Part shown: positions 124-40,097 of the stretch, one piece after another | Position numbering within the stretch: position 1 is the stretch's first letter | Layout of the letters: every line of letters begins with the position of its first letter | DNA from: a virus | Length of the DNA: 42,809 bases | Direction: 5' to 3' (one strand) | Virus record (IMG/VR): IMGVR_UViG_3300013104_000012 | Location: 1 to 42,809 of that record | Program-made: the position numbers and the translations under genes | Notes under the pieces: model-generated | What the model was told of the DNA's origin: nothing | Databases searched by the model: none | What the model saw: only the letters and a program-made list of their open reading frames with translations

Positions 124-326
124 CCGGTCTGCGCCGCTCCCGTGGGCCCGGTCGGCCCGGTCGGTCCCGTGGGTCCCGTCGGTCCGGTGGGCCCGGTTGG
201 GCCCATTGCTCCGGTGCCGCCAGTCGGTCCGGTTGGCCCCGTCGCGCCTGCCGTGCCGTTTTGCAATGACGGGCGAATCGTTTGAATGTCGCCCGTGCCA
301 AGCAACAGGAAGTCGCGCAGCATCAT
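1..326 (-). CDS. Collagen-like fibre protein, N-terminal part (continues at 42809)
   Basis: This is the 5' part of a gene split by the contig ends. Joined to 42305-42809 through the 123-bp overlap it gives one 235-residue protein. Residues 1-20 carry the short leader found on many late proteins here ([10 protein letters not shown]). Residues about 27-64 are Gly-X-Thr triplets, mostly GPT, predicting a collagen-like trimeric stalk. The C-terminal ~165 residues (coded at the right end) look like a beta-rich head domain. The start ATG overlaps the stop of the upstream gene (ATGA), and a second ATG follows directly. By context it is a virion fibre or capsid decoration. Its 53-bp stretch at 145-197 is identical to part of the next fibre gene. 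Function is inferred; no enzymatic motif is visible. Confidence 0.85.
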
Positions 327-649
327 GTGTAGACCGATACATCGATGATCGGCGTGCCGCTCGCGGCGATGAACTTGATTTTCGACAGATCGCCCACGTA
401 GTCGAGCTCGCCGCCGTCGGGGATCGTCATGCCGATCGTGGCGGTCGGGTCGATACTGTCGTCGCGCCATCGCACCGCGCCGCCGTTACACTGGATCACC
501 ACGAAATTGTTTGCGAAACCCGGCGGCGGCGTCGGCAGCGTGAGCGCCGTCGCGGAGAGAGGATTCACGATCTGCTGGTAGCCGGTCGGCCGGCGATAGC
601 CGGTAATGACCGCTTCCGAGTCCTGAATGCCAAGGCGCAGGAATTTCAT
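323..649 (-). CDS. Small virion-associated protein, paralogue of its upstream neighbour
   Basis: A 108-residue protein of unknown function. It starts with MKFLRLG, the late-gene leader motif. It is clearly paralogous to the product of 646-999. Both have an RRPxG(F/Y)QQ element near residue 20, then IQC, a W-R-D-D-x-(V/I)-D-P-T-A-x-I-G-M block, a GDLxxI(R/K)FI strand and a matching C-terminal strand ending VSxY. Its start overlaps the stop of that paralogue by four bases and its stop overlaps the start of the collagen-like fibre, so all three are translationally coupled. Position between the portal region and the fibres suggests a structural or decoration role (inference). Confidence 0.8.
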
Positions 650-999
650 GCGTAATAGCTCACGTTGAGCACCGGTGATCCCGCGCCGGTGATGAACCTG
701 ATCGCGGTCAGGTCGCCGAAGTATTGCAACGGCGCATCGCCGGTCGAGAGCAGCATCCCGATCGATGCCGTCGGATCAACGCCGTCATCGCGCCACGACG
801 CCGAAGCGCTCGTGCCGGTGCATTGGATGAGCGCGAACGACGCGATGATCGCCGCACCCGCAGGCCCGGCGGGAATCGTCAGGCCGACCGCGCCGCCCGA
901 CAGCGTCAATTGCTGAAATCCCATCGGCCGACGCTGGCCGCTGACCGTCGCCTCGCTCGGCCACACGCCAAGCCGCAACCATTCACGCAGCAGCCGCAT
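646..999 (-). CDS. Small virion-associated protein, tandem paralogue
   Basis: A 117-residue protein, the upstream member of the tandem pair with 323-649. It begins MRLLREWLRLGVW, a variant of the leader shared by many late genes here, followed by the RRPMGFQQ element and the W-R-D-D-G-V-D-P-T-A-S-I-G-M block. The start lies inside the last 17 bases of the metallopeptidase gene, in another frame. The fold looks all-beta, and no catalytic motif is seen. A duplication with substantial divergence is the simplest origin. It is likely a virion surface protein, with no family name that I recognise. Confidence 0.8.
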   Translation of the reverse strand: MRLLREWLRLGVWPSEATVSGQRRPMGFQQLTLSGGAVGLTIPAGPAGAAIIASFALIQCTGTSASASWRDDGVDPTASIGMLLSTGDAPLQYFGDLTAIRFITGAGSPVLNVSYYA

Positions 1000-1465
1000 T
1001 GCGCTTCTCCTTCATGCCTTCGGTGATCCGCGAACAGCGTTTTTCGAACGTCGGATAGAACTCGGAATCGCGCGGCATCTGCCGCTTCAGCCATTCCAGA
1101 AGATCGACCCCGTAGCCTTCGGCGACCACGAACGCATCGGCGTCGAGCTCGTTCTTGCGCGCGAAAGCGGCCGCGGCGAAATACAGCGCTCCCACCGCAA
1201 GCGCCACCGCGACGATGCGCAGCGGCAGGAACGCGAGCGGCGCAGCGATGGCAATAAGACACGCGATGCGCTTTTCCAGATGCCACGCCTGGCAGTGCTT
1301 AGCCTCGTGCAACAGCACCGCGCGCTGCACGCGATGCCCATCGCGCATGAAGTGCGGGCCGATCAGGATGTAGCGGTTCCAGAAAAATCCGCGCGCTTCC
1401 GCGCTCCCGGTGTGAAACTCCGAGTAGCACACCGGAATTCCGCAGATTTCCGTAACCTGATTCAT
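983..1465 (-). CDS. M48/M56-like integral membrane metallopeptidase
   Basis: A 160-residue protein with a zincin signature. HEAKH (residues 53-57) matches HExxH, and NELDAD (residues 105-110) supplies the downstream Glu expected as third zinc ligand in M48-type peptidases. Between them residues 66-101 form one or two hydrophobic segments, so the protein should sit in the inner membrane with the active site close to it. At 160 residues it is far shorter than HtpX or Ste24, close to a minimal catalytic core. I chose ATG 1465 (MNQVTEICG) because the longer reading starts inside the preceding gene. It sits between the portal and virion-protein genes and is transcribed with them. Possible roles are cleavage of host membrane proteins, superinfection control or help in lysis; none is shown by sequence alone. 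Confidence 0.75.
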   Translation of the reverse strand: MNQVTEICGIPVCYSEFHTGSAEARGFFWNRYILIGPHFMRDGHRVQRAVLLHEAKHCQAWHLEKRIACLIAIAAPLAFLPLRIVAVALAVGALYFAAAAFARKNELDADAFVVAEGYGVDLLEWLKRQMPRDSEFYPTFEKRCSRITEGMKEKRNAAAA

Positions 1466-1475
1466 CCGCGCACCG

Positions 1476-1691
1476 TCACCACAAGCGCAGGTGTCCACCG
1501 CCGCCCATGCCGATCACGTTCAGCAGGATCGTGACGAGGACAATCAGAGCGATCAGCGCGACGATGGCTTGCGCCACTTTGTTGAACGGCTCGGGCAATC
1601 CAATCTTGGCAATGAACCACCATATGAGCCAGAAAATCAGCCCGAGAACAACGATCACGACGACGAAATGCAGCAACGATGCGACGTCCAT
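1476..1691 (-). CDS. Small two-span membrane protein
   Basis: A 71-residue hydrophobic protein. Residues about 6-28 (rich in V, I, L, W) and 40-61 (A, I, V, L) form two transmembrane helices separated by a short polar loop with a PEPF motif. The C-terminus is short and Gly-rich. It lies between the portal gene and the membrane metallopeptidase in the late operon. Two spans and small size would suit a holin, but a better holin candidate lies beside the endolysin, so an envelope role together with the metallopeptidase is equally possible. Confidence 0.75.
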   Translation of the reverse strand: MDVASLLHFVVVIVVLGLIFWLIWWFIAKIGLPEPFNKVAQAIVALIALIVLVTILLNVIGMGGGGHLRLW

Positions 1692-1709
1692 AGCGGCCCT
1701 CCTGGTTGA

Positions 1710-3938
1710 CTATCCGCGGCCCATCACCGCGCCATCGGCAATCTGATCCGCCGGCACCGCGCCCGGCGGCGACTGCGCGGGACGCCCCGGTGCTGGCAGC
1801 GCGCCAGGCCGCGGCGCGCCGGCCGCCCCCTGTGGAGGTGCAGCGCCCTGACCGCCACCCGGCGATCCCGGCACGCCCTTCTGTTGCACCATCGCCATCT
1901 CGCGCTTGCGCGTGAGCGCCTGGTAGTGCGCCATCATGTGTTGCTTGAACAATCCCAGCGGATCGCCGGCTAGGTTCGCCGCGCGCATGTGCGATTGCAG
2001 ATGCTTCACGTCGTCGTCCGCCTCGTGCACTTCGACGGCGAAGCCGTTGTGCAGCATTTCGTCCTCTATCTCTGGATCGACGCGGAACTGATTGCGCTGA
2101 TCGACGAGAATGCGCGGCGCTACTTCGGGCCCGAAGATCGTTTCCGTGCCCTCTTCCAGAATCGGCGTCACGTCCAGCGTGCGGCCGTTCAGCAACTGCG
2201 GCGGTATTCCCTTCAGCACGTTCATCCACGCGATCTTCTGCTGCAACCGCTGCACGCCGTTCATGAACTCGGTACCGGTCCAGCGGAAGAAGAAGCGCTC
2301 TCCCCACTGCGGTACGGGAATTTCCTCGAGCGCCGCCTTGACGCCGATCTCGCCGCGCGTTTCCACCATCAGCGACTTCGTTCGATACTGCTGATCGAAC
2401 TCGAACATCATTTCGACGAGCGGATTCAGCATGCACTCCTCGTACCGCTGCGCGTGATCGGTGATGTTGACGCTCTGTTCCTGCTGCATCGCGCCCATAA
2501 GCTGATTGTTCTTCCGGCCGGCGGGCATACGCCCCATCATCATCTCGTTCACGTCCATCGATTCCCAGATCTGCCGCTTCAGCAAGTCGCAAATCTGCGC
2601 GCTGTCCTTCCACAGTTGCGGAGACGTAATCGGCTTGATGTCGTTGGGTGCGACCGGCCATACCGCGGCCAGCCCCATGACGAGCTGCGACCACTGCGGC
2701 GTTTTCAGCGGGTCGACGGACCATATCGGCAGCAGGGAATACATCGCCGAGTCCTGGCCCATCAGCCAGAAGTCATTGAGGTTCCACTGCAGGAACTTGA
2801 CGGGCTCGATCTTCGACTTGCCGAAGAACGATCCCGCGACACGATCGACGGGAACGGAGAAAATCGGCCGCTTCCCCGACCATAGCGGGTTGCGGATGAT
2901 GCCGATGATTTCCTCGGGGCCGGCAAAGAAGATGATCGCCTCTTCCTTGCGCTTGCCGCCCAGATCGAGCTTCGCGTAGGTCTGAAACACCAGCGCGAAC
3001 TTCGCCGTGCCCTCGCTTTTCACGCCGGCATCGTTCGCCTGGCGCTTGGCCGGGTTGCGCTTGTCGCGCTGCTGATCGGGCTTCAGAAAATCCGCGATCT
3101 CGGTTCCCTCGGGCAGCACGAACACGCCCTCGTCGACCATGCGCTCCATCGCCTCTTTCGATAGGCGCAGCTTGACGCTGACCGCGTGCGCCTTCTGCAG
3201 GTCGGTGCACGTCGGCGGCAGCACGCACAAATCCTCGGTCGCGAAGTCGACGATTTCCGGCCCTTCCTCGAGCACGTCCTCGTCCTCGGTGTCCTCCTCG
3301 TCGTCGAGCCCCGGCAACTCGAGCTCGGCGCGCTCCTCGCCGTCGATCTGCTCGAGCAGCGGATTGCGGCGCACGAGCTCGGTGACCTTGCGAACGCTCG
3401 AGGTCCAGTCGAGCATGAGATTCCACTGCCCGGTGACGTCGCCGGCGACAAGATCGGTGCGCACGATCGAGCGCAGGTTCGTCTTGCGGATGTAATGCTC
3501 GAGGAGCGCGAGCTGCGTGTACGGCGCGTGCCGATCGCTCGACAGTCCGTCGACGTGCTTGTGATTCGAGGGGAAGAGCTGCTTGAGGGCGCGTTTCGCA
3601 CGCGCGTTTATGGCGTCACGAACGGCCGGGATGTAGCCCTGCGAGTTGCCGGTGTACTGCTGATTGTCGTCCGGCTTGCAGTTGTAGATGTTCCAGTATT
3701 CCTCGATCGCCTGGCCCTGCTCCTCCTTGTTGTCGTAACCCTTGACGATCAGCTTGTACAGCTTCTCCGCCGCCTCGTACGCGGGAGAACTCTTTTTCTC
3801 GGCGAAGTTTTCTACCGGGTCGGCGAGCGCATCGGACGTGGACGGGGCGAGCGTGTCCTCGGCTTTCGCGCGACCGCGATTGCGCGAGCGCTCGCGCGTG
3901 TTTTCCTTGCGATGTCGTCCGCGCTCGGCCACATGCAA
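1710..3938 (-). CDS. Portal protein (head-tail connector)
   Basis: A 742-residue protein downstream of the large terminase, with the length and composition of podoviral portals. It has an N-terminal charged region, an acidic insert (residues about 200-240, many D/E), a long central region with W/F-rich segments and a Pro/Gly/Ala-rich C-terminal tail. It should form the dodecameric ring through which DNA is packaged and to which the tail attaches. The first codon of the open frame is TTG (3938), with GTG at 3932 as an alternative; no in-frame ATG or strong ribosome site decides between them. Identification rests on size, position and resemblance to the portals of BPP-1-type phages, so the family call is good but not residue-proven. 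Confidence 0.85.
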   Translation of the reverse strand: MHVAERGRHRKENTRERSRNRGRAKAEDTLAPSTSDALADPVENFAEKKSSPAYEAAEKLYKLIVKGYDNKEEQGQAIEEYWNIYNCKPDDNQQYTGNSQGYIPAVRDAINARAKRALKQLFPSNHKHVDGLSSDRHAPYTQLALLEHYIRKTNLRSIVRTDLVAGDVTGQWNLMLDWTSSVRKVTELVRRNPLLEQIDGEERAELELPGLDDEEDTEDEDVLEEGPEIVDFATEDLCVLPPTCTDLQKAHAVSVKLRLSKEAMERMVDEGVFVLPEGTEIADFLKPDQQRDKRNPAKRQANDAGVKSEGTAKFALVFQTYAKLDLGGKRKEEAIIFFAGPEEIIGIIRNPLWSGKRPIFSVPVDRVAGSFFGKSKIEPVKFLQWNLNDFWLMGQDSAMYSLLPIWSVDPLKTPQWSQLVMGLAAVWPVAPNDIKPITSPQLWKDSAQICDLLKRQIWESMDVNEMMMGRMPAGRKNNQLMGAMQQEQSVNITDHAQRYEECMLNPLVEMMFEFDQQYRTKSLMVETRGEIGVKAALEEIPVPQWGERFFFRWTGTEFMNGVQRLQQKIAWMNVLKGIPPQLLNGRTLDVTPILEEGTETIFGPEVAPRILVDQRNQFRVDPEIEDEMLHNGFAVEVHEADDDVKHLQSHMRAANLAGDPLGLFKQHMMAHYQALTRKREMAMVQQKGVPGSPGGGQGAAPPQGAAGAPRPGALPAPGRPAQSPPGAVPADQIADGAVMGRG

Positions 3939-3945
3939 TGCCGGC

Positions 3946-4125
3946 CTACAGCATCACGCCGCGGAGCTTCTTGCCGGCGCGCCCCATGCCCTTGCGATGG
4001 CCCACACCCGCCGGCCGCATGCGCCCCGGCATATCGTCGGGCTCGGGCTTCTTCGGCTTCTCCGCGAACTCGCGCGTCGGCGCCGACAGGCGTTTCACCG
4101 CCTTCTTCATCCGTCGCTTCGCCAT
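3946..4125 (-). CDS. Small basic protein between terminase and portal
   Basis: A 59-residue, strongly basic protein (MAKRRMKKAVKRLSAP...) with many Lys/Arg and a central acidic PEPDD patch. It starts at ATG 4125 and ends with TAG at 3946-3948, just ahead of the portal. Composition suggests nucleic-acid binding or packing against DNA in the head. Its place between terminase and portal is where many podophages keep tiny hypothetical genes. No family is recognised. Confidence 0.6.
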   Translation of the reverse strand: MAKRRMKKAVKRLSAPTREFAEKPKKPEPDDMPGRMRPAGVGHRKGMGRAGKKLRGVML

Positions 4126-4131
4126 GACGGT

Positions 4132-4305
4132 TTACTGCCGCGACAAGTCTTTGCGGCCGTAGATCGTCTCGCGCAGCGGGCCACCCTGCAGGCGATCCCC
4201 GACGCGCGTCGGCTTGCCGTGCGTGCCGCCCTGCTGCTGGCCCTTGAAGAAGTCGACGGGTTGCTGCGAAGGGGCTTTCTTGGAAAATCCACGCGAAATC
4301 GCCAT
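4132..4305 (-). CDS. Small basic hypothetical protein
   Basis: A 57-residue protein starting MAISRGFSKK, rich in Gln, Gly, Lys and Arg. ATG 4305 is chosen because a GAGGAG ribosome site lies about nine bases upstream. It is the first gene after a roughly 100-bp gap that holds a conserved 18-bp motif (4356-4373), so it may begin a separate late transcript with the next small gene and the portal. No function can be assigned. Confidence 0.65.
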   Translation of the reverse strand: MAISRGFSKKAPSQQPVDFFKGQQQGGTHGKPTRVGDRLQGGPLRETIYGRKDLSRQ

Positions 4306-13599: not shown

Positions 13600-13833
13600 A
13601 TGGGAATGAAGCAGTTGATGAGGATCACCCTTGACGCTAAACAGGTGCGCGAGGCGTGCGAGACGTTTGTCGCGACGAGGATCGACACGGCTACGGAAGT
13701 AGCCGATGCCATCGTGCCGGCCGATACGTCGATCGTGGTGACGGTCAGCAAGCGCCGCGCGCCGAAGAAAGCAAAAGTCAATTCCGTGGCGAGCGCTGGC
13801 CCGCTCTCCGAGCCCGAACAGAGGTTCTCATGA
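13600..13833 (+). CDS. Small hypothetical early protein
   Basis: A 77-residue protein with a helical N-terminus (MGMKQLMRITLDAKQVREAC), a VVTVSKRRAPKK strand-basic segment and a polar tail. AGGAG lies seven bases ahead of ATG 13600. The stop overlaps the nuclease gene start, so it is coupled to the recombination genes. It could be a recombination accessory protein (context only). Confidence 0.6.
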   Translation: MGMKQLMRITLDAKQVREACETFVATRIDTATEVADAIVPADTSIVVTVSKRRAPKKAKVNSVASAGPLSEPEQRFS

Positions 13834-14783
13834 CGCCGGGCGAGTATCCCGGCCTGCCGATCGCCGACTACCTGCGCCTGCCGGCGGTGTCGGCGTCGCT
13901 GGTGCGAACGCTGCTCGAGCGCTGCCCGCGCGCTGCCTGGTGGGAATCGCCTTGGAATCCGCTATACGAGCCCGAAACCAGCGACGAGAGCGACGCCGGG
14001 ATCATCGCGCACGCCATCCTGTTCGAAGGCCGGAACGACGTATGTGAAGTCATCGACCCGCTCGATCATCCGGCCGAGAAAACCGGCGCGATTCCCGACG
14101 GCTGGACGAACAAGAGCATTCGCGCCGCGCGTGACGCAGCTCGTGAAGCCGGCAAAATCCCGGTGCTCGCGGCGAAGTACGAGCTCGTGTGTGCGATGGT
14201 CGACGCCGCGCGCACCTACATCGGTAGCCTGTGCGCCACGGAGCCGGCGATATGGGAAGCGTTTCAACCCGGCGGCGGCGATTCCGAAGTCACGATCCTA
14301 TGGAACGAAGCGGGAACACTATGCCGCATGCGGCCGGACCGGATCAGTCATGATCGCCGCCTCGTCGTCGACGGCAAGTTCACCCTGACGAGCGCCGAGC
14401 CTGACGCTTGGGGCCGCTCGCAGATGATCCGCATGGGGTACTACATCAGCGCCGCGTTCTATCGGCGCGGGATCGCCGCGCATTACGGCGTCGAGGATGC
14501 AGCGTACGTGTATCTCGTCGTTGAGCAGGAGCCTCCGCACCTGTGCTCGCTCGTCGGCGTGGATCAGCACGGGTTCGCGCTCGGCGACGACAAGGTACGC
14601 GTAGCACTGGCGCAATGGGCGAAGTGTGCGCGTGACAATGTGTGGCCCGGCTACCCGGCGCGCGTCGCCTATCCCGAGATCCCCGCGTGGACCGATTCGC
14701 AATGGCAGGAGCGGCAGGCTTCGGACCAGATGGGGATCCCGTACGACGTCGCAAAGCTGTTCCCGGCGAAGGCGCGGGCATGA
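13830..14783 (+). CDS. RecE/Cas4-like PD-(D/E)XK nuclease
   Basis: A 317-residue protein of the exonuclease VIII (DUF3799-like) type. Early residues (PGLPIADYLRLPAVSASLVR) match the entry motif of this family, followed by a conserved AHAILFEG. The nuclease core shows CRMRPDRIS, then LVVDGKFT (the D-x-K catalytic strand), and a Q-x-x-x-x-x-Y helix (QMIRMGYYISAAFY) as in RecB, Cas4 and RecE. It should resect dsDNA to give ssDNA for phage recombination. It is coupled (ATGA) to a RecA-fold ATPase that would act on that ssDNA. Confidence 0.8.
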   Translation: MTPGEYPGLPIADYLRLPAVSASLVRTLLERCPRAAWWESPWNPLYEPETSDESDAGIIAHAILFEGRNDVCEVIDPLDHPAEKTGAIPDGWTNKSIRAARDAAREAGKIPVLAAKYELVCAMVDAARTYIGSLCATEPAIWEAFQPGGGDSEVTILWNEAGTLCRMRPDRISHDRRLVVDGKFTLTSAEPDAWGRSQMIRMGYYISAAFYRRGIAAHYGVEDAAYVYLVVEQEPPHLCSLVGVDQHGFALGDDKVRVALAQWAKCARDNVWPGYPARVAYPEIPAWTDSQWQERQASDQMGIPYDVAKLFPAKARA

Positions 14784-24496: not shown

Positions 24497-25251
24497 TTGA
24501 TCACCTTCGTCTCATCGAACGTGATCACGCGCTCGCGCACCTCGCGAATCTTCGGCGCCGCGGTGCGATATTCCTCGTTCAATTGCTTGAGCAGCGTATC
24601 GACGGCACCGGTCGCGGGTCCGTCCTGCTCGCCCAGGTTGCCGACGAGTTTCGACGCGGCCAGGAACTTCACCTGATTCTGCATGCTGTTCGTGGAAATC
24701 GGCATCATCGCCAGATCGCGCAGCGCGTCGAGTCCATCCTGTTTGTAGAGCGTCATGCGCTCGCGCAGCGCGGTCATGAATGCAGCGTCAGGCTTCGCGC
24801 CCGTCGACCGTCTGCGCGGCGGGACTGTTACCGCAAGGTCGACCGCATTCAGATTCTTCGGCAGCGCGCCGAATACTAGCGGCGCTTGCGCTTCGGCGGC
24901 TTTCCCGTTGCCAGCGCTTGACCCGTCGACGCTTGGCAAATCCGCGCCGCCTTCCCCTTGCTCGCCCCCTTCGCTTTCACCTGCTGGTAGCACCGTTCGA
25001 CTTTCGTTCCCTTGGGCATAGGTTTTCTCCAATTGCCGCTGCACTCGATTCCGATCCTGATCCTGCTGGCGTTGGATCAGAAGCTCGGTTTGTTGCTCGA
25101 TTCTCTTGCGGCTCATCAGGCCGAGATCGCGCTCAAGTTGGCACCCGAGGGACATCAGCCGCACGCATTCGCGGCAACGGAACGCCCCGTTGTTCACCTG
25201 ATACGCGTTTTCAGGCGTGAGCTCGTGCCCGTGCTTGCAGTGCGTGTTCAT
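24493..25251 (-). CDS. Zinc-finger phage protein of unknown role
   Basis: A 252-residue protein. The N-terminus HCKHGHELTPEN with a later FRCRECVR makes a C-x2-H/C-x2-C metal site found in many phage HNH-associated proteins. Then come a charged coiled stretch (Gln/Arg-rich), a low-complexity Gly/Glu/Ser linker and a helical C-terminal domain (FMTALRERMTLYKQDGLDAL to VITFDETKVIN). No HNH catalytic His is seen. A small terminase is possible from its helical C-terminal domain, but it lies far from terL. It is coupled at both ends to the ATP-grasp and spanin genes. Confidence 0.55.
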   Translation of the reverse strand: MNTHCKHGHELTPENAYQVNNGAFRCRECVRLMSLGCQLERDLGLMSRKRIEQQTELLIQRQQDQDRNRVQRQLEKTYAQGNESRTVLPAGESEGGEQGEGGADLPSVDGSSAGNGKAAEAQAPLVFGALPKNLNAVDLAVTVPPRRRSTGAKPDAAFMTALRERMTLYKQDGLDALRDLAMMPISTNSMQNQVKFLAASKLVGNLGEQDGPATGAVDTLLKQLNEEYRTAAPKIREVRERVITFDETKVIN

Positions 25252-26594
25252 ATCGCGAAGTTCGTCGCAAAGCCGTGTTTCTGGATCGCCGGCAGGCGTT
25301 CGCTGATGCGTCCGGCGCCGATGTCGGGACGGTAGAACGGATCGGCCGGCATGTGAATCTTCTTGACCGCTGCATACGCGCTGCGCCGCGCGCCGGTGAT
25401 GGTGTCGCCGGTGCCGGTGATCACGCACACGTAATCACCGCACGTCACGTAATGCGGCATGCGCACGACGCGCTCGGCCATCTGCACCGGCACGTCATCG
25501 CCGATCATGATCTCGCAGAGATGCACGTGGGTGCGGTCGGTCGCGCCGTAGACCGGGATGCCGGTCAATTCCTTTTTCGTCGCGTGCGAATAGGGAAAGT
25601 CGGGAATCGCCATCACGATCGACACACAGGCGACGTTTTCCTTCACCTGCAGCGTGTCGCGCCCGTTGAGCAAATCCACCATCCACTGCACGGGATCGCC
25701 ATCGTGCGTCGCCGTCTGGTTGTAGAACGTCGGCCAGCCGGGACGCATCGTGAACTCGAACGGCCAGAAGTCGCCGCGCTCGTCGATCATCCCGCTCACG
25801 TCGCAGAAACCGACGTAATCGAGATCGTGCAATAGTTTGGTCACCGGCTTTAGCGCAATGTCGGCCAGTTTCGATTTCTGCACGTACATCGACAGCGTTC
25901 CCATCTCGCCGGTGTTCGGTCCGAGATCATTTGCCATGAGCTTCTTGTATTCGAAATTCTCGTAGAAGAATTTCGACCATCCTGCCGGACCGAACCAGCC
26001 GCCGACCGCCATTTCGCAGCCGATTTTTTTCTCCTGCAGGATGAACCCGTGCGCGCGCGCGTCGGCGCGATACTTGTCGTTGTGCTGCCAGCGATCGACG
26101 AGCATGTGCACGAGGCTTGCGGCATCGGGTGCCACGTAGGACAGCGCCTTGTCCGCATCGCCGCTCGGCTTGCTCACGAGGAAGGTCGGATGCTTTTCGA
26201 CGTAGCGCGCCGCTGCCTCATAGTCGCGGAATTCGACGCCGGGAATGATCTTCATTCCAGCCGCCTTCATCGCCTGCTGCCCGATGCGCCGGTCTAGCTC
26301 CAGCTCGGAGGCTTCCGGCGACGGGCCGAACACCGGGTAGCCGATCTTCCGGTAGGGCTCGAGGAGATCGGTGTAGTGCGCGTTGTCGGTGACGAAGATC
26401 AGATCGGCCCACCCGAGGTAGCGCGTGCGCAACTGATCGAAATCGACGAGCCGCGGGACGATGCCTTTGCCCGCAAGCTGCACCGAGCGATCCTTGTTTT
26501 TCTTCGCGTACCACATGACGTCGTGGCCTGCCCATTGCGCGCGCATACCGAAGTCGAGCGCGTTGCTGCCGGCATCCACGATCAGCACCTTCAT
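25248..26594 (-). CDS. ATP-grasp enzyme, PurD (GARS)-like
   Basis: A 448-residue protein from ATG 26594 (MKVLIVDAGSNALDFG). The N-terminal domain starts with a Rossmann-like strand-loop as in PurD. The ATP-grasp region shows LVSKPSGDADKALSYV, FILQEKKIGCEMAVGG and the metal-binding stretch WPFEFTMRPGWP. A third domain (VCVITGTGDTITGARRSAY) matches the PurD C-terminal segment. PurD joins glycine to phosphoribosylamine; a phage copy inside the virion operon could instead ligate another carboxylate-amine pair, such as modifying a peptide, polysaccharide or base. It overlaps the ejection-type gene upstream and the zinc-finger gene downstream. The family call is good; the substrate is unknown. Confidence 0.8.
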   Translation of the reverse strand: MKVLIVDAGSNALDFGMRAQWAGHDVMWYAKKNKDRSVQLAGKGIVPRLVDFDQLRTRYLGWADLIFVTDNAHYTDLLEPYRKIGYPVFGPSPEASELELDRRIGQQAMKAAGMKIIPGVEFRDYEAAARYVEKHPTFLVSKPSGDADKALSYVAPDAASLVHMLVDRWQHNDKYRADARAHGFILQEKKIGCEMAVGGWFGPAGWSKFFYENFEYKKLMANDLGPNTGEMGTLSMYVQKSKLADIALKPVTKLLHDLDYVGFCDVSGMIDERGDFWPFEFTMRPGWPTFYNQTATHDGDPVQWMVDLLNGRDTLQVKENVACVSIVMAIPDFPYSHATKKELTGIPVYGATDRTHVHLCEIMIGDDVPVQMAERVVRMPHYVTCGDYVCVITGTGDTITGARRSAYAAVKKIHMPADPFYRPDIGAGRISERLPAIQKHGFATNFAI

Positions 26595-27934: not shown

Positions 27935-29545
27935 CTATTTCAGGTCGCTCCAATCGACTACCTTCGGCGCGGCGGCGGACGCGGGCGACGAATCCGTCGG
28001 CTTCCCGCCGTTCCCGCGCAGCGTTTTCGCAAGGCCGGTGCGCTGCTTCTCCATCGCGCCGATGCGGTTTTTCGAGTCCTGCAGGATGCGATCGATGACG
28101 CGGTTCGTCTGATCGAGCGACAGCGTACCGTCGACCACACCCTCCATCTCGTGGCGCGCGGTGTCGGTCAACTGGCCGACGAGCCGCGGGTTATTCAGCA
28201 CCCGCGCGGCTTCCGTCTGCACGAACCGCATCTGTGCCAGGAATTCCGCAACGTCGGCATCGCCGGTGACGTTCTGACCGAGCCAGTTGAGCGTCTTGTT
28301 GGCGTAGCGGGTATCCGTCTTGACGACCTTCGCGGCGAGCGTTTTCAGGATCCCGGCGTTCGTGTCGAGCATGTCAGCGAACGGACGGATCGCCGTCAAG
28401 TCCTTCGTGATGTTGTTTAGCGCTTGGCTGTTGGCGTGGAACTCCGCGCGCGCGCCAGGCACCTGGCTGAACTGTCCGCCGCCCTCCCGTTCGATTTGGC
28501 CGGCGCGATCGAGAATCGCTATCTTGGATGCCGCATTGAACCCGAGCGCCGGCATCTTTCCGTCCTTCAGATATTGCTGTGCGGCGACTTCGATGCCTTC
28601 CGGTGTAAGTCCTCCCGTGGCGCCGCCCGCGCCGGTGCGCCCGCCGCCGCCCTCAACGCGCTCGCGGGCGATGCGATTGCGTTCGTCGCCCTGTTCCAAG
28701 CGCCTCTCGCCCTGGTTCTCGAGCCGGCCCTCGCGCGCCTGCTTGAGCAGGTTGTTTTGATAGTCCATTACCATCTTCGCGATCTTCGCCTGCACGCCGA
28801 ACTGCTCGACATACGCCTTGTTGTTGGCTTCGATCGCCGGCGACATGGACTGCCATGCGTCGTACGCCTCGAGCGGCGTCGCGCCGCCCTTCACCGCTTT
28901 TGCGAGAAAGTCCTTCGGGTTGATGAATTGCGGCTCGCCCGGCGTCGGTGCACCACCCATCGGAGGCGCCGCGATGCCCCCGCCCGCGCCGGGCGCTTGC
29001 GGTGGCGCCGGCGGCGGACCGCCGAGAGTCGGCGGCGCCGCGGGACTGCGCTGCCAATTCGGACCGGGCGCCATGACAGCGGCGGGCTGGTCGGCCTTGT
29101 CCATCGCGCGCATCCGCGCAAGCGCTTCCTGCGCGTTTGGCGCGGTTCCGGTCATCGTGCCGGGGGGGAACATGCCGGGCGGGATTTGCGGCGGTCCTGA
29201 TGGCAGCGGCGCGCCCGTTGGCGGCGCTGCCGCGGGCGCAGCGGCGGTCTGCACGTTGGCCGGGCCCGGTTGCTGGCCGGGCGGCATCATCGGCAGCGAC
29301 GGCGCGCCGGGCGGCGGCGTTTGCGGTGCACTATCCGGGCCCGCGGGCGGCGCGCTGATCTGGCCGAGGATGTCGACGCCACGCGCGGCACCCGCGAGCG
29401 CGCGCCGGCGATCCTCCTCCTTCTGCCGCCGGTCCTCTTGCGCGAACGTCATTGCCTGCAACACGCGCTGCATCTCGACGTCGCGATAGCGGCGCGAATT
29501 CGCGTCGTTGATCGCGCTGGTATAGCCGCCAGTGAAATCGGGCAT
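27935..29545 (-). CDS. Probable internal virion / ejection protein
   Basis: A 536-residue protein. The first ~60 residues are polar helices (RYRDVEMQRVLQAMTFAQED, then a Glu/Arg-rich coil). Residues ~65-210 are a Pro/Gly/Ala low-complexity segment, and the C-terminal ~300 residues are helical with many Asn/Gln. Composition and position match DNA-ejection core proteins. Its start overlaps the stop of the previous gene by one base. No catalytic motif, such as a transglycosylase, is seen. Confidence 0.6.
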   Translation of the reverse strand: MPDFTGGYTSAINDANSRRYRDVEMQRVLQAMTFAQEDRRQKEEDRRRALAGAARGVDILGQISAPPAGPDSAPQTPPPGAPSLPMMPPGQQPGPANVQTAAAPAAAPPTGAPLPSGPPQIPPGMFPPGTMTGTAPNAQEALARMRAMDKADQPAAVMAPGPNWQRSPAAPPTLGGPPPAPPQAPGAGGGIAAPPMGGAPTPGEPQFINPKDFLAKAVKGGATPLEAYDAWQSMSPAIEANNKAYVEQFGVQAKIAKMVMDYQNNLLKQAREGRLENQGERRLEQGDERNRIARERVEGGGGRTGAGGATGGLTPEGIEVAAQQYLKDGKMPALGFNAASKIAILDRAGQIEREGGGQFSQVPGARAEFHANSQALNNITKDLTAIRPFADMLDTNAGILKTLAAKVVKTDTRYANKTLNWLGQNVTGDADVAEFLAQMRFVQTEAARVLNNPRLVGQLTDTARHEMEGVVDGTLSLDQTNRVIDRILQDSKNRIGAMEKQRTGLAKTLRGNGGKPTDSSPASAAAPKVVDWSDLK

Positions 29546-30489
29546 CAGGTGCCCCCGCCGCCGCCGTAGTAGCCGCCCAGGTTCGCCGGATCACCGGAAA
29601 ACGAGGACGGCGAGCTCGGCTGGTTGAAGATCGAGCCGAGTTGCCCGAGGCCGGTCGTGAGGTTGTTCAGCCCCGTTTGCTGCTGGCCGAACTGATTGTT
29701 ACCCGCCGTCTGCCCGTAGCCGAGATACGCGAGCAGTTGCGGCGTGAGGCCGGCGAGCTGCTGATTCGCGCCCTGGCTCGCGCCGCTGAACGCGTTGGCG
29801 AACTGGAACGGTAGGAGTGCCGCGGTGTTCTGCAGGCCCGCGGCGCCGGCGACATCGCGGCCGACCTGGTTCGCCTGCGTCGCACCCGCGTTGTACGCGC
29901 CGCTCATGCCCTGCAACCCCGCGAGTTGGCGATGCAACTGCTGGTTTTGCCAGTTGATCAGGAAGTTGTTCACGTCCTGATTCTCGATGCCGGCGGCGTT
30001 GCCGCTCATGCCGATGCCGCGCGCCGACGTTCCCGCGCGCGAGGCATCCGTCACCTGCTGCTGAAGCTGGTTGCGCAGCGCGTTTTGCGGATCGAGCGCG
30101 GTTTGGAATACCTGGCTGCCGGCACCGTACAGCGCGTTTTCGTTCGCCTGTCCCTGCGTGCCCTGATTCTGGAGCGTGTTGCCATAGCCAGAAATCAGCG
30201 CCTGCAGGTTGCCGAACGGTCCGCCTGGCTGCGTCGCGGCATATCCCGCATTGATCCCCGGCTGCGCGGTCGCGCCTTGCTGTTGCCCGCTTTGCATCAA
30301 CTGCTGGATGATCTTCTGGAAATTCTGATCGATCTGCGGCTGGCCGCTCGGCTGATAGTTCGTGCCGCCGGGACCGCTGCCGCTGCTACCCGAGCCGCCA
30401 CCGAACAGCGAATTCGCGCCGCTGGCGATGCCGACAATGGACGCAACGGTGCCAAGCCCAAGACGAAGATAACCGCGCAGGAATCTCAT
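29545..30489 (-). CDS. Gln/Gly-rich virion protein with late leader motif
   Basis: A 314-residue protein beginning MRFLRGYLRLGLGTVAS, the clearest copy of the late leader motif, followed by a short hydrophobic segment (VASIVGIASGANSLFGG). The rest is Gln-, Asn-, Gly- and Ala-rich with long amphipathic helices (QNFQKIIQQLMQSGQQQG) and a Gly-rich C-terminus. Such composition is usual for podoviral internal or injection proteins. It overlaps the GNAT gene stop by four bases. Confidence 0.65.
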   Translation of the reverse strand: MRFLRGYLRLGLGTVASIVGIASGANSLFGGGSGSSGSGPGGTNYQPSGQPQIDQNFQKIIQQLMQSGQQQGATAQPGINAGYAATQPGGPFGNLQALISGYGNTLQNQGTQGQANENALYGAGSQVFQTALDPQNALRNQLQQQVTDASRAGTSARGIGMSGNAAGIENQDVNNFLINWQNQQLHRQLAGLQGMSGAYNAGATQANQVGRDVAGAAGLQNTAALLPFQFANAFSGASQGANQQLAGLTPQLLAYLGYGQTAGNNQFGQQQTGLNNLTTGLGQLGSIFNQPSSPSSFSGDPANLGGYYGGGGGT

Positions 30490-31022: not shown

Positions 31023-32182
31023 CACAATTCCGCGTCCAGCGTCCATCCGCACAGCAGTTGATCGCCAACGCTGGCGCCCGCGTCGAGCGTCGTCTGGATG
31101 TAGCCCGTATGCTCGAATGCCGTCACCGTAGTCGATGAGCAATCGATGCCGGTCGTGTTGTTATGCGCCTGCTGATTGTTGTTCACCGGGTTGAACGCCG
31201 CGCCGGAGATGTTCGATCCGCTCGCCGTTCCGCCGCGCATCGGACCCATCATCAAGATCGGGAGTAATTGCGCTTTCGCTCCCGCCTGCAGCGCCTGCCA
31301 ATACGACAACGTGCCGACGCCCGAGCCGCTGCCGGTGGCCGGCGGCACGACGAAATTGAATGATTTCTGAAAATAGCGCTGACAGCGCGCCAGCGCATGG
31401 GCGAAGGGCTGGAAATCGAACAGCGATGCCGCCGCGCCGATTTCCAGTTGCACGCCCGTGACATCGAAATAGTCGGCGGCTCCCGCGGTGCCGGTCGGCG
31501 TGTACGTGAACACGACGCCGCATTCGGTCGCGCTGCTCGGGATCGTCCCGCTCACTTGGTAGCGCGTCCATCCAGACGTAAGCACGGCGTTATCGGTAAG
31601 CGTCGCCGCCGCGCCCGTGTAGCCGGCAAGCACGTTCTCATCACTACCGGTGCCGGTATACAGCGTGCAATTCAGGAACGCGTTGCCCGCCGAGTAATTG
31701 GCGCCGTTGCGCGCGTAGAACGACACCGTGACTGTCTGCCCTTGCAGGGGATAGCTGTCGACCGTTTCCAGGCTCTGCGCGAGTTGAATCAACGTCGTCG
31801 CAGCATTCGCCGCCGTGCGCTGTACGCGACAGAAATACTCGAAACTCGGCAGCGAGCCATCAGCGACGCGTGAATATTCGGCCGATCCGCCTACACCTGT
31901 TTTTCCCTGCCAGCGATCGAGTGTATAGATGGACGCCGCCGGCAAAAGTACGGCCAGGTCCACGAAGCGTTGTGCAACCTGCATCGCCCCGTTCGACAAC
32001 AGGTTCGTCCCGCGCGACACATTTCCGCCCCCGCTCGGCGAGTTCTGATTCACCTGATCGGCGATGAACTGCATGTCGGCCATCACCTGCGTCGCATCGG
32101 CGACGGTGCCGTTGGTCAGTTGGATCGGCAGCGGGCCGACGATCGCGCACAGACGAAAGAAGCGCAGGATGCTCATGGTCAT
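31022..32182 (-). CDS. Tail fibre protein
   Basis: A 386-residue protein starting MTMSILRFFRL, then PLPIQLTNGTVADATQVMAD and FIADQVNQN, an N-terminal virion-attachment module shared with the next upstream gene. The body is beta-rich, with a carbohydrate-binding-module-like jellyroll (residues ~60-250) ending in FQPFAHALARCQRYFQKS, a motif of many phage tail fibres. The last ~100 residues are Ser/Thr/Gly-rich. It probably binds a surface receptor. There is no reverse transcriptase or template repeat, so the DGR system of BPP-1 is absent. Confidence 0.75.
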   Translation of the reverse strand: MTMSILRFFRLCAIVGPLPIQLTNGTVADATQVMADMQFIADQVNQNSPSGGGNVSRGTNLLSNGAMQVAQRFVDLAVLLPAASIYTLDRWQGKTGVGGSAEYSRVADGSLPSFEYFCRVQRTAANAATTLIQLAQSLETVDSYPLQGQTVTVSFYARNGANYSAGNAFLNCTLYTGTGSDENVLAGYTGAAATLTDNAVLTSGWTRYQVSGTIPSSATECGVVFTYTPTGTAGAADYFDVTGVQLEIGAAASLFDFQPFAHALARCQRYFQKSFNFVVPPATGSGSGVGTLSYWQALQAGAKAQLLPILMMGPMRGGTASGSNISGAAFNPVNNNQQAHNNTTGIDCSSTTVTAFEHTGYIQTTLDAGASVGDQLLCGWTLDAEL

Positions 32183-33036
32183 GCCGTGTAGATCACGAAG
32201 CACGCAAGCCGCGACGTGTTGCTGAAATTGGCGTCAGTCAGGAATGCGATGTTGGCGCCACTCACGCTATCTACGAAATTGAGCACCGCCTGATTCGGTT
32301 GCGGCACCGGCGTCGGGACACCGGTAAACGTCACCTGATGCGTCGACATGCTTCCCATCGGCAACGTGCCGCTGCCTGGGAGCGACATATTGACGACGAC
32401 GCCGAGATCGACTGCGGCGATGCCCGTCGCGCTGCCCTTGCTGGTGAGCGAGATGAAAATCCACGTCAGGATAAGATTTCCAATCGTGATCACGAACGCA
32501 GTTTGATTCGAATAGGTAATGCCGGTGGACGCACCGCCGAACGAGAGTACCGGCGCGTACGGCTCAAGCGCGCTGCCGAGCGGAAAGTTGACCAGTGAGA
32601 AGCGGCTGCCCTGATAGCAGATGTCATAGACGCCACCGATCTGCAGTTCACCGCCGATCAGCACGGCGCCGCTCGCCATAGTCAACTGCGCAGCACCGAC
32701 TCCAGAAACGTTTACGGTGACTCCGCCCTCGCCATTCACCGCTTTCGCCACGAACCGATACGACTGGCCTGCGGTGTAGCCGGGATTGACGGCGGTCGGC
32801 GTGAGCGTGATCGCGTTGCCGCTGCCGCCGACGCCGCCCGCGGGAACGAACGTCACCGGCGACGCGCCGGCATTGATCAGCGGCGGGACGTTCGCGTTCA
32901 CCTGCGAGACGATCCAGTTGAAATCGTTCATCACCGGCACCGCGTCGACGACATCGCCATCGACGATGTTGTTCGGCAGCGGATTGATGATCACGCCCAT
33001 GCGCAGGAAACGAATCATTGAAGCCGTATGCCTCAT
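32179..33036 (-). CDS. Fibre-like virion protein with shared attachment module
   Basis: A 285-residue protein. MRHTASMIRFLRMGVIINPL is followed by PNNIVDGDVVDAVPVMNDFN and IVSQVNAN, the same module as in the fibre next to it (leader, proline, D/N-G-x-V-x-D-A, then a V/Q-N helix). The rest is all-beta with Gly/Ser/Thr repeats (GAAQLTMASGAVLIGGELQI). Start and stop overlap neighbouring genes (ATGA on both sides). A fibre or accessory spike is likely. Confidence 0.7.
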   Translation of the reverse strand: MRHTASMIRFLRMGVIINPLPNNIVDGDVVDAVPVMNDFNWIVSQVNANVPPLINAGASPVTFVPAGGVGGSGNAITLTPTAVNPGYTAGQSYRFVAKAVNGEGGVTVNVSGVGAAQLTMASGAVLIGGELQIGGVYDICYQGSRFSLVNFPLGSALEPYAPVLSFGGASTGITYSNQTAFVITIGNLILTWIFISLTSKGSATGIAAVDLGVVVNMSLPGSGTLPMGSMSTHQVTFTGVPTPVPQPNQAVLNFVDSVSGANIAFLTDANFSNTSRLACFVIYTA

Positions 33037-35487: not shown

Positions 35488-35491
35488 CGTC

Positions 35492-36543: not shown

Positions 36544-36552
36544 CGCACCCTC

Positions 36553-36589
36553 GCAAAAGAACGGGCGGCGGTTGTGCGCGCGCCGCCCG
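36553..36589 (-). terminator. Intrinsic terminator after the capsid gene
   Basis: On the minus strand CGGGCGGCG (36589-36581) pairs with CGCCGCCCG (36570-36562) around a 10-base loop and is followed by TTCTTTTGC. This is a 9-bp GC stem with a T-rich tail just past the capsid stop. It probably lowers expression of distal late genes relative to capsid. Confidence 0.75.
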
Positions 36590-36607
36590 GATTCATTCCC
36601 GACAGGA

Positions 36608-38035
36608 TTACGAGTTGTCGGCCATCGTGCCGGCGCTGTAGCCCGGCGTGAACGCGCTCGAGGCTTCCAGCCGCACGAGGAACGCCTGATTCAGGATGAT
36701 CGAGCCGTAGAAGCATTTCCACGACACGGCGCGCGTCTGGTTCAGCCGATCGCTCTTGTCGGCCCCGGTCAGGTAGAAGAACTCGGGATTTTCGAGGATC
36801 ACCTGCCCGTAGCTGTGATTGCCGATGAAGATCGACGGGAACACATACACGCCAGTCGCCGGCGCCGCGGGCGGCGTTTGCGCCGCGCCGATGCCGGTGA
36901 TGACGACCGTCGCGCCGGACGGAAGTTGCGTCGCCTGGCCCGCCATCGGTCCCGTTGCCGGGCCCGCCGCGCAGAGGCCGAGATTGGTCGGCGACGCCGA
37001 CGTGCCGATGTAGACGCTGAACGTGTAGTTCGGCAGCGTCGGCAGCGTCACGCTGATCGATCCGGTCGGGCCGGTGACGCTGATGTTGCCCGACACCTGA
37101 TAAATCTGCTGCTCGACCGACGTTTGCACCGGCGAGCCCGTGACCTGGATGTTGTACGTCGTGCTCGTCGCCAGTGTGCCGCCAGCGGCCGATGCGGTAC
37201 CGGTGACGAGCGCCACGCCAACCCAGTACGGCATCATGTTCGTTTCGACCCAGCGCACGCCGCCGAACGCCCCGAGCTCGTTGTTGTAGAGCCGATTGAT
37301 GTCGGAGTACGCCCACGCGGTATTCACCTGCGCGTTCTCGCGCATGTCCTGCGCTGCGAGCGGATGGATCAGCGCGCAATAGTGCTGCATGACGGCCGGC
37401 GACTTGGACGGGTCGCGATATGACCCCGCCTCGATCATCATGTCCTCGCGCTCGTCGCCCATGTAGCGCGGCGCGCCGTACGTCATCAGCGAGCCGACGA
37501 TCTTGTTCGACTCGTGCGGCGTCGTCACGTCGGTGGCGACGAGTGCGGCGCGATTGGCGCGCCCGTTCGCATAATTCACCTGATTGGCCGCGAGCAGCGT
37601 ATTGAGCGTATTGCGCTCGAGCGTTTCCGGCATCTGCAGGCTGACGAGCTGGATCGCCTGCTGAAAGATCGGGTGCTTGATGGTCAGGTTCGCCACGTCG
37701 GTGACGATCACGCTGTCGCCCCACTGCTGCGCGACGGCGGAAACCTGCACCAGCGTGACCGCCTCACCGATGGGTGCTACACCTTCCTGCAGCGGCGCGA
37801 ACGGCAGCGGCAGGCGTTCGAACCGCGTCGCCGTGTACGTCGTGCCGCGGTTGATATCGAGATGCAGGGGCTTGCCGAACTGATACGCGACGAGCTGCCG
37901 GCGCGCGAGCGGTTCGACTTCCTCCTGGATGTAATTCTCGATGTCCGACTGGAAGCCCGGCGAGGTCGACGTGTTCACGACGCCCAACGTCAGGAAGGCC
38001 ATCAGTTTCAAGAGGAATGCGGTCATGGTCGTCAT
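36608..38035 (-). CDS. Major capsid protein (N4-gp56 family) with inserted domain
   Basis: A 475-residue protein. The N-terminus (MTTMTAFLLKLMAFLTLGV) is a distant copy of the late leader. The body matches N4-gp56-type capsid proteins: SDIENYIQEEVEPLARRQLV, TYTATRFERLPLP, QWGDSVIVTDVANLTIKHP, YCALIHPLAAQDMREN and FGGVRWVETNMMP. Residues about 285-400 are a Ser/Thr/Gly-rich all-beta insertion that starts TYNIQVTGSPVQ and ends near TPPAAPATGVYVFP. It separates the last core segments (SYGQVILENPEFFYL onward) from the rest. That domain likely protrudes on the capsid surface. Preceded by the scaffold gene and followed by a terminator. Confidence 0.88.
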   Translation of the reverse strand: MTTMTAFLLKLMAFLTLGVVNTSTSPGFQSDIENYIQEEVEPLARRQLVAYQFGKPLHLDINRGTTYTATRFERLPLPFAPLQEGVAPIGEAVTLVQVSAVAQQWGDSVIVTDVANLTIKHPIFQQAIQLVSLQMPETLERNTLNTLLAANQVNYANGRANRAALVATDVTTPHESNKIVGSLMTYGAPRYMGDEREDMMIEAGSYRDPSKSPAVMQHYCALIHPLAAQDMRENAQVNTAWAYSDINRLYNNELGAFGGVRWVETNMMPYWVGVALVTGTASAAGGTLATSTTYNIQVTGSPVQTSVEQQIYQVSGNISVTGPTGSISVTLPTLPNYTFSVYIGTSASPTNLGLCAAGPATGPMAGQATQLPSGATVVITGIGAAQTPPAAPATGVYVFPSIFIGNHSYGQVILENPEFFYLTGADKSDRLNQTRAVSWKCFYGSIILNQAFLVRLEASSAFTPGYSAGTMADNS

Positions 38036-38046
38036 GCTCCGTTGAA

Positions 38047-38832
38047 TCAGATGGGTTGGCCTTCGAGTCGTGCCCGACGCTTGTCGCGTTCGGTCTGTCC
38101 GCCGCCGCGCGCGCTCACGTCGCTGCGCGCGTTTGGCAAGCGTTTGCGTTCCACGGACGATGCGTTGCCCGGCGCGGCGGCGCGGGCCGCTTTCGGCTTG
38201 AGCTTGCCGTTCATGATGTCGTCGCCGATCATGAAGCGCAGCATCGCCATGCGCGGCGGCACGGTCTGGCCGCTGTTGCGCAAATCGGTGACCGCCTTTT
38301 CGATGCGATCGCGATACTGCTTGTACGTTTTCGGCTTCGTGACCGCGAGCTGTTCGAACTGCGTGCGGTCGGCTATGTCGCGCGACTCGTTGAGCGCCGC
38401 CTGCGAGCGCTGATCGGACGCGCGAATCTTGCGGTTGCTGTCGATCTGCCAGCGCAGCCAGCGGATTTGATCTTCGGTCGCGCCGTTGCGCTGTGCGTCC
38501 GCAATCTGCGCTTCCTCCCGGTCGAACTCGGGATCGCGGGTCGGCGTCTGCGGCGTAGCTCCCTGCCGCTGGCGCGTCTCGTTGAGCTCGCGCTCGACGT
38601 TCTCGCGCCGCGCGCGCTCGGCCTTGAGCGCTTCCTTGGGATCGTCGGGATCGTCGGGATCGGGCGTCTCGATGTCCAACACGTCATCGAGCGCATCCGG
38701 GTCGTCGTTAGCGCCGCCGGTATCCGGCGCGGGATCGGGCCCCGGATCGGGCGGCGCGCCCGGATCGGGATCGCCTTCGGCCGCGCCCAGGCGCAGATAA
38801 CGGGGCAGAAGTTTGCGCAGCAGCAAGCTCAT
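38047..38832 (-). CDS. Scaffolding protein
   Basis: A 261-residue protein from ATG 38832 (MSLLLRKLLPRYLRLG, a late leader copy). It is very acidic and Pro/Asp-rich in residues ~18-70, then helical and charged (EALKAERARRENVERELNET; AQRNGATEDQIRWLRWQID) with a basic C-terminus. This acidic-helical-basic layout directly upstream of the capsid gene is that of podoviral scaffolds. It should guide procapsid assembly and leave before packaging. Its start overlaps the upstream stop by four bases (ATGA). Confidence 0.8.
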   Translation of the reverse strand: MSLLLRKLLPRYLRLGAAEGDPDPGAPPDPGPDPAPDTGGANDDPDALDDVLDIETPDPDDPDDPKEALKAERARRENVERELNETRQRQGATPQTPTRDPEFDREEAQIADAQRNGATEDQIRWLRWQIDSNRKIRASDQRSQAALNESRDIADRTQFEQLAVTKPKTYKQYRDRIEKAVTDLRNSGQTVPPRMAMLRFMIGDDIMNGKLKPKAARAAAPGNASSVERKRLPNARSDVSARGGGQTERDKRRARLEGQPI

Positions 38833-39302
38833 TTCGTTGCGCTTCCGATGTTGAAATAGGTGAGCGTACCGGCCGCGGTGACCATCACGAAGTAGTCGCG
38901 GCGCACGTCGGTGGCGATCGTGGCCGTTCCGGTAATCGTCGTGCTCGCATCGCCGGCCGTCAGCGTCCCGGTATGCGTCGTCGCATCGTTGAGGATCGAC
39001 CACCCGAATCCGAACGTGCCGTCGGTGACGACCGTTGGTCCCATCGCCGCGATGATGGCGGCGGTCGACGGCAAGGTGATCGTGAAGTCACCGGACGCGC
39101 CGCTCGTCAGCCGTAGCACCCGGCGCCGGCATTGCGGTGCCGTCAGCGTCGAATTCGTGCCCGCGGTGACGATGTTTTCCAGATGCCCGCAATAGACGTT
39201 CGCGTTGGAAAGCAGCGCGATCAGCCCGAAGTCGGCGGCGCGGTCCGGCACGAGGCCGGCGGGAATCGGTGCCAGAACCGCGAGACGCAGGAAGTTCCGC
39301 AT
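38829..39302 (-). CDS. Virion protein with repeated beta domain
   Basis: A 157-residue protein beginning MRNFLRLAVLAPIPAG (late leader). Residues ~60-150 form a beta domain: RRVLRLTSGASGDFTITLPS, an AAIIAAMGPTVV segment, GTLTAGDASTTITGTATIA and RRDYFVMVT. The same order of elements is found in residues ~55-150 of the glycine-rich fibre (40892-42298), so the two are paralogous modules. It lies between the scaffold and a related structural gene, probably as a capsid decoration or head fibre. Confidence 0.7.
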   Translation of the reverse strand: MRNFLRLAVLAPIPAGLVPDRAADFGLIALLSNANVYCGHLENIVTAGTNSTLTAPQCRRRVLRLTSGASGDFTITLPSTAAIIAAMGPTVVTDGTFGFGWSILNDATTHTGTLTAGDASTTITGTATIATDVRRDYFVMVTAAGTLTYFNIGSATK

Positions 39303-39308
39303 GTTGTC

Positions 39309-40097
39309 TTATGCGGCGACGGCCGTGATCACGAACAGGCGCGTGAACGTGATCTTGTTGTTGAACACGCTCACCGCCGCAGCATTGGCGATGTTCTTGT
39401 TGATATTGCCGGCGACGGTGATCGCGAGCGTGTTCACCGCTGTAACGAAATAGTTGCTGCTCGATCCGTCGGTGTTGACGACCTGCAGCCATGACGCGTT
39501 GGCGTTGATGCCGGTCGCGCTCGCGACGTTGATGATGCTCGTCGGATTGTTCACACCGGCATTGTTCGCGACGGCCGCGGTCGTCGTCGTGCTGTTCGTG
39601 GAGACGGCTCCGGGCAGCGTCGGATTCGCGAGGTTCGTCACCTGCGCGAGCCAGTACGCGAGTGCCGTCGTCACCATCGTCGCGGTGCCGGTAATGGTGA
39701 CGTTGGTCCCGCCGGCAAGCGTCATCGTCCCCGAGTTCAGGTTAGCGATCTGCAGCAGGGCTTGTGCGCCGACATACGCGTTCGGCCAGTAGCCGTTGAT
39801 GATGGCGGTCGCGGTATCGGTGGTGTTCGTGTTCGCCGAGCCGCCGGACGCGACGATGATCGCGTTGATGAGGCCGTTGGCGCAGTTCGCGGGATTCAGC
39901 GTCAGCGCAGTCGTGCTCGCGTTGGTGACAGCCGAATAGTTCTTCGGCAGCGCCATCGGCGATGCAGCGAGTGCGAGCGTATTGAGATACGCCTGCAGCG
40001 ATGCAGCATCGGCGTTGTTGCCGTCGATCTGCAGCGATGGGAGTTGCCCGATCACCGGCAACCGAAGGAAGCGGAGAGCCTGCGCGAGTCGAGTCAT
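39309..40097 (-). CDS. Ser/Thr/Asn-rich virion protein
   Basis: A 262-residue protein. MTRLAQALRFLRLPVIGQLP, then SLQIDGNNADAASLQAYLNT, is the leader plus attachment-type module related to those at 32182 and 33036. The rest is Ala/Thr/Asn-rich beta repeats (GTMTLAGGTNVTITGTATMV; AVSTNSTTTTAAVANNAGV). GGGAGG lies seven bases before the ATG and a good promoter (40153-40125) precedes it. It heads the scaffold-capsid block. A head-decoration or fibre role is likely. Confidence 0.7.
   Translation of the reverse strand: MTRLAQALRFLRLPVIGQLPSLQIDGNNADAASLQAYLNTLALAASPMALPKNYSAVTNASTTALTLNPANCANGLINAIIVASGGSANTNTTDTATAIINGYWPNAYVGAQALLQIANLNSGTMTLAGGTNVTITGTATMVTTALAYWLAQVTNLANPTLPGAVSTNSTTTTAAVANNAGVNNPTSIINVASATGINANASWLQVVNTDGSSSNYFVTAVNTLAITVAGNINKNIANAAAVSVFNNKITFTRLFVITAVAA

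Follow-up and report, generated by a model that had tools for sequence, protein, structure and literature searches.

The locus

The window, by which we mean the whole stretch of DNA analysed here, is a 42,809-base IMG/VR virus record from a temperate podovirus-like phage, with the integrase and early genes on the + strand and the late genes on the - strand. Its close relatives are IMG/VR contigs and Paraburkholderia prophages, P. phenoliruptrix LMG 22037 and P. tropica LMG 22274 being two strains with a prophage of this clade; INPHARED gave no megablast match for the first 25 kb of the window. Ten late genes begin with variants of one short peptide, the leader, whose last residue we number 0, the residue that follows being +1. 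These genes, a candidate protease gene and the portal gene are arranged as follows, mature length being the number of residues from +1 to a conserved landmark of the family.

3-326, - strand: collagen-like fibre gene; leader at 297-326, 10 residues (score 15.5, p=0.0003 against shuffles)
323-649, - strand: small protein; leader MKFLRLG at 629-649; mature length 10
646-999, - strand: small protein; leader MRLLREWLRLG at 967-999; mature length 10
983-1465, - strand: candidate leader protease of 160 aa; HEAKH...ELDAD and YPxxxxR, M48 (Ste24/HtpX-like)
1710-3932, - strand: portal protein, just before the protease gene; without a leader (control)
29545-30489, - strand: Gly-rich ejection-type protein; leader MRFLRGYLRLG at 30457-30489, from its motif score
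31022-32182, - strand: tail-fibre protein (phrog_4492 tail fibre); leader MTMSILRFFRLC at 32147-32182; mature length 13
32179-33018, - strand: tail-fibre protein; leader MIRFLRMG at 32995-33018; mature length 13
36608-38026, - strand: major capsid protein (phrog_1357 major head protein); leader MTAFLLKLMAFLTLG at 37982-38026
38047-38832, - strand: putative scaffold, acidic, directly before the capsid gene; leader MSLLLRKLLPRYLRLG at 38785-38832, from the motif
38829-39302, - strand: leader MRNFLRLA at 39279-39302; mature length 8; leaderless homologues start MLTPIPAG
39309-40097, - strand: leader MTRLAQALRFLRLP at 40056-40097, from the motif

An earlier note on this DNA had counted at least nine leader-bearing late genes. 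All the N-termini that it quoted are present, at or a few codons from where it had placed them, though small corrections are needed at 32182, 33036, 40097 and the capsid start. The alternative start at 33036 of the fibre gene at 32179-33018 reads MRHTASMIRFLRMG, and the capsid gene may start at 38026 or 38035.

Several further features of the window and its relatives deserve mention. A paralogue-type protein lies at 40892-42298. The leader is complete (PFLNLG, then IILAQPGQLRPD) in the L132 relative and may have shrunk to MAGIAG in the window copy, the 12-residue spacing being unchanged. In the capsid gene of L110 (13862-15379), about 30 extra codons separate the start of the leader (MKYLKKLGLLWA) from the YLFPGVTNQ cut region. 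Inside the late region of the window, 25248-26594 encodes an ATP-grasp-like protein that is 56-73% conserved in L014, L016, L018 and L140. The 79-kb contig IMGVR_UViG_3300037852_000046 has two capsid genes from this clade at separate places (L180 and L191) and perhaps holds two tandem or joined prophages.

Leader motif and its distribution

The leader is 7-16 residues long, with the core F/Y-L-x-[L/P]-[G/A/P] and V/I/A directly after it. Two motifs were used, a PSSM trained on the capsid leaders of the clade only, and a motif of 9 columns trained on 136 leaders of other contigs, from which the window and near-identical contigs were left out. Both pick the same window proteins, and the capsid leaders by themselves already suffice for detection of the scaffold and of the 39309 and 29545 proteins. 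With the relatives-trained motif, the 10 late proteins score 10.1-17.8 and the next protein 6.3, apart from the product of one early gene (13830-14783), whose score of 13.1 at residue 18 is probably a chance match. The earlier note had made its claim depend on significance over shuffled N-termini, and 9 of the 60 window proteins pass that comparison after Bonferroni correction. It had also called the proteins behind the leader unrelated, which holds for about seven families; 323/646 and 31022/32179 are paralogues. The portal, the tail-tube proteins and the 27935 and 26591 proteins, all late or virion proteins of the window, have no leader. The leader marks a subset of the structural proteins, not all of them.

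The same peptide recurs in dozens of relatives, on at least five unrelated families (capsid, scaffold, tail fibres and small proteins among them), with 4-8 leaders per genome in other large loci. The capsid-trained motif is present in 73 of 76 capsid proteins, 33 of 114 members of the 39309/38829 cluster, 10 of 18 fibres, 7 of 17 small proteins and 40 of 69 scaffolds, many of the leader-negative scaffolds being truncated by gene calling. By way of background, 0.8% of shuffled N-termini and 0.5% of internal windows match it as well. The motif was found in none of 85 portal, 71 C3, 69 tail-tube, 68 C6, 65 C7 and 38 protease sequences, nor in any of 60 TerL proteins. The leader is confined to structural proteins, as the earlier note had proposed. 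The recurrence on non-homologous proteins of related phages, which that note had suggested looking for, is thus evident for capsid, scaffold, fibre and small proteins. Gain and loss on homologues occur as well: homologues of the 29545-30489 protein are leaderless in L016 and L018 and leader-bearing in L156.

A leader with a defined end

Where does the leader end? In the fibre family, the distance from +1 to a conserved Gly is 13 residues in all 19 leader-bearing members above threshold. Among leaderless fibre homologues it is again 13 residues in 31 of 37, once the initiating Met is excised (MAIIGALP... becomes AIIGALP...); the other six are 1 or 2 residues longer. Two more families have their own constants. 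From +1 to the landmark is 8 residues in the 38829 family (leader-bearing 9/9, leaderless after Met excision 6/6) and 10 residues in the 646/323 family (9/9 and 3/3, respectively). The leaderless totals of 37, 6 and 3 omit a few sequences that the script called leaderless; by eye these have a leader of low score, and the length rule holds for them too. Within a family, raw lengths may differ and the processed ones still agree, as in MKRGEEVVTG (10) versus MAKRGEEVVTG (11), and MLTPIPAG (8) versus MTIFRVPAG (9). The upstream frame of 16 leaderless genes was checked, and a leader was found in 0/16. Leaderless outgroup capsids start at the corresponding point in 5 of 6 cases, in an alignment at low identity.

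A single rule, a cut after residue 0, would account for the raw and processed lengths, the leaderless homologues and the outgroup capsid starts. The recurrent leader is most likely a propeptide, to judge from these sequence comparisons. Precise fusion of a leader at the old start, with no cleavage, could also give similar lengths, but different families would then need different junction rules.

Selection on the peptide

The leaders are basic, with a mean net charge of +1.9 and D or E in only 14%, and amphipathic, with a hydrophobic moment of 0.46 versus 0.31 for shuffled sequences. Among 238 distinct leaders, P1 is mostly small (G/A/P, occasionally R, C, S or K) and P1' is hydrophobic (V/I/A). 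The capsid structure model is poor (pLDDT 62), and the structure of the leader is not readable from it. A classical Sec signal peptide does not fit: the sites end in L/P-G/A/P before V/I/A rather than in A-x-A, and capsid and scaffold are among the carriers. The leader motif also gives weak scores to a few true signal peptides of relatives.

The conserved F, L, P, G and V are encoded by most of their synonymous codons, and GTG is not enriched for the V at +1. Such free variation of codons places the selection on the protein. An internal GTG restart at +1 is ruled out by the unbiased V codons, as is a DNA-level or promoter/RNA module by the free codon use. One might still think of a nucleic-acid element in a wider sense, a translation start module, an RNA signal or DNA spread by recombination, with the peptide incidental. 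The leader is, after all, always at the gene start, and several of the junctions are overlapping stop-starts. With synonymous codons varying freely and the end point of the peptide constrained at the protein level, we find this explanation hardly credible.

Concerted change within genomes

Residue -1 has two dialects, L or P. The capsid and scaffold leaders have the same dialect in 51 of 55 distinct pairs (Fisher 9e-12), an agreement not explained by phylogeny alone (partial Mantel r=0.27, p=2e-4). For five families in 30 genomes, agreement is 92% versus 69% when permuted (p=2e-4); both tests of agreement may be somewhat anti-conservative, as the genomes are related. In L015, every leader has P. 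The leaders of one genome change together, which suggests that one factor reads all of them.

The earlier note had offered a start module spread by recombination as one explanation. The leader does behave as a module in being gained and lost on homologues, but spread as recombining DNA does not agree with the free codons, nor with the divergence of the leaders and their joint change in each genome.

Must the common factor be a protease? The leader might instead stay uncleaved, as some fibre N-termini do, and anchor virion proteins to a common site such as the capsid inner surface, the portal or the tail hub. That the carriers are virion-type proteins would suit such a docking peptide, and the joint change of leaders within a genome fits a shared binding partner. 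But the capsid itself and the scaffold carry the leader, leaderless homologues keep exactly the same processed N-terminus, and a metalloprotease always accompanies the leader, so that we consider permanent docking quite unlikely.

A candidate protease

The gene at 983-1465 lies between the portal gene and leader-bearing genes, and its relatives are beside or near the portal gene. Residues H53, E54, H57, E106 and D110 are invariant in 27 aligned relatives at 24-43% identity (88% for the near-identical L132). The strict pattern of HExxH plus a distal Glu (ExxxD) is present in 132 of 137 matches; 4 more have another neighbour residue and 1 is incomplete. Pfam M48 (PF01435) matches 27 of 27 members at E values up to 1, the best being 1.8e-9, with the window protein at 14.6 bits, under the curated cut-off of 20.3 bits. 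A profile of the family finds Ste24p in the PDB at 1.7e-8. The AlphaFold2 model (pLDDT 93) has ZMPSTE24 and Ste24p as its best fold matches, with a TM-score of about 0.6 of the query. On the strength of these profiles and the model, the product is an M48 zinc metalloprotease of putative activity. In 400 genomes of the same order, the profile finds mostly host M48 enzymes of 400+ residues. Between the portal and protease genes, 1476-1691 encodes a small, strongly hydrophobic protein; similar short TM proteins are found in L139 and L159.

All 106 ingroup loci with portal and capsid genes have the protease. Neither protease nor leader is present in nine outgroup phages and prophages that share the capsid superfamily and gene order, not counting L258, a fragment, and tblastn found no match to the protease among INPHARED phages. 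Leader and protease form one clade against the outgroups and were probably gained once, together; their co-occurrence therefore counts as about one event. Thermolysin-like gluzincins prefer sites with a small P1 and a hydrophobic P1', so the leader sites suit such an enzyme.

A host protease is another candidate for the cutting, leaving some other role to the phage M48 protein. The capsid protein and scaffold of phage 80alpha are cut by host Prp (PMC5744158), and the hosts here have M48 proteases of their own. Moreover, the divergence of leaders is not specific to that of the protease: beyond other genes, the two are correlated with partial r=0.09 (p=0.07). On the other side, a search of four host-group genomes did not turn up Prp, and a phage protease with an intact active site is near the portal in every relative and missing where leaders are missing. 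We regard cutting by a host protease as very unlikely.

A model for the leader

What might such a leader do? In the scenario that we favor, a basic amphipathic leader would be made on the capsid, the scaffold, the fibres and several small virion proteins. Through it, many unrelated virion proteins could probably be recognised by one factor, and it would probably delay or steer the assembly of its carriers until it is cut; the phage M48 metalloprotease of 983-1465 would then remove it after residue 0. We infer cleavage, the role of the enzyme and the purpose of the leader, and consider it probable that the leader is a short propeptide cut after residue 0 by one protease, likely the M48 enzyme. 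Before its removal the leader may serve as a chaperone handle, in procapsid entry or in membrane docking.

Procapsid entry was the role proposed in the earlier note, which spoke of a targeting or packaging tag. A functional tag on structural proteins is well in line with our results, while pure procapsid entry, possible for the head proteins, leaves the tail fibres unexplained. T4 has capsid-targeting sequences of this kind, N-terminal propeptides of 10-20 residues on several head proteins (PMC5694885), and here the leader is found on the capsid, the scaffold and an ejection-like protein, as would be expected if it mainly brought proteins into the procapsid and was then cut inside the head. 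The presence of the leader on tail-fibre-type and small proteins argues against this as the sole role, and as the main one we think it unlikely. Capsid targeting is compatible with the propeptide reading as the purpose of the leader, though not required by it. Compared with a pure procapsid-entry tag, a propeptide that is cut by the phage's own protease has the better support.

A more speculative scenario, possible but doubtful, is that the amphipathic leaders are in-plane membrane anchors, by which capsid, scaffold and fibres would be gathered at the inner membrane until released by a membrane-associated Ste24-like phage protease. In such a membrane-tethered pathway of virion assembly, one peptide would be the "password". 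Ste24 has seven transmembrane helices; the phage candidate, unlike Ste24, has at most a hydrophobic hairpin.

Comparison with known systems

The earlier note knew of no described system of this kind, but 80alpha with Prp and T4 with gp21 are close precedents. In 80alpha, capsid and scaffold share a leader that is cut by host Prp; the scaffold leader is essential, and its cleavage is not (PMC5744158). A Prp-type leader is also reported on the phage 80 CP and a phi13 tail protein (PMC5744158, PMC9405229). Ribosomal L27 begins M'AHKK in E. coli and MLKLNLQFF'ASKK in S. aureus (PMC9405229), and this proven Prp leader has the same mature-start signature that we see here, which supports cleavage of the phage leaders. 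Common to both systems are a short basic N-terminal peptide on non-homologous capsid and scaffold proteins, and leaderless homologues that start at the mature residue. The enzyme in 80alpha, however, is a cysteine protease of the host that processes ribosomal L27, whereas the candidate here is a phage-encoded M48 metalloprotease; the leader motif differs, and up to ten proteins per genome carry it. Prp (PF04327) was found in 0/5 genomes or records searched, the phage included, with positive controls.

T4 gp21 removes propeptides of 10-20 residues from several head proteins (PMC5694885). There as here (by inference), one protease would serve short N-terminal propeptides on several unrelated proteins. 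Unlike the M48 candidate, gp21 is serine-type (catalytic triad H, S, D) and also shreds the scaffold core (PMC5694885), and fibre-type proteins carry the leader only in the present case.

With M48 peptidases such as Ste24p/ZMPSTE24, HtpX and minigluzincins (e.g. proabylysin), the candidate shares HExxH, a distal E in ExxxD, a C-terminal P-x4-R and the predicted fold. It differs from the known ones in being only about 110-160 residues long, virus-encoded and near a portal gene. N4-gp56-like/phrog_1357 capsids, as in phages Page and vB_Pun_Y3, belong to the same capsid superfamily and share the portal-scaffold-capsid order, but those phages, unlike this clade, have neither leader nor protease. 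A literature search, with preprints and most subscription journals outside its reach, found no description of an M48 enzyme in phage maturation.

The leader system belongs to a group of soil viruses infecting bacteria. If the proposed scheme is correct, it would be the first phage maturation system, as far as known, built on an M48 (Ste24/HtpX-like) metalloprotease, and one cleavable leader would serve more kinds of protein, fibres included, than in the description of 80alpha. Why unrelated virion proteins share cleavable leaders was left open for 80alpha (PMC5744158); the present system bears on that question, and the Paraburkholderia prophages make it tractable. It works like 80alpha/Prp and T4 gp21 but is a member of neither; the type of protease and the breadth of leader use are new.
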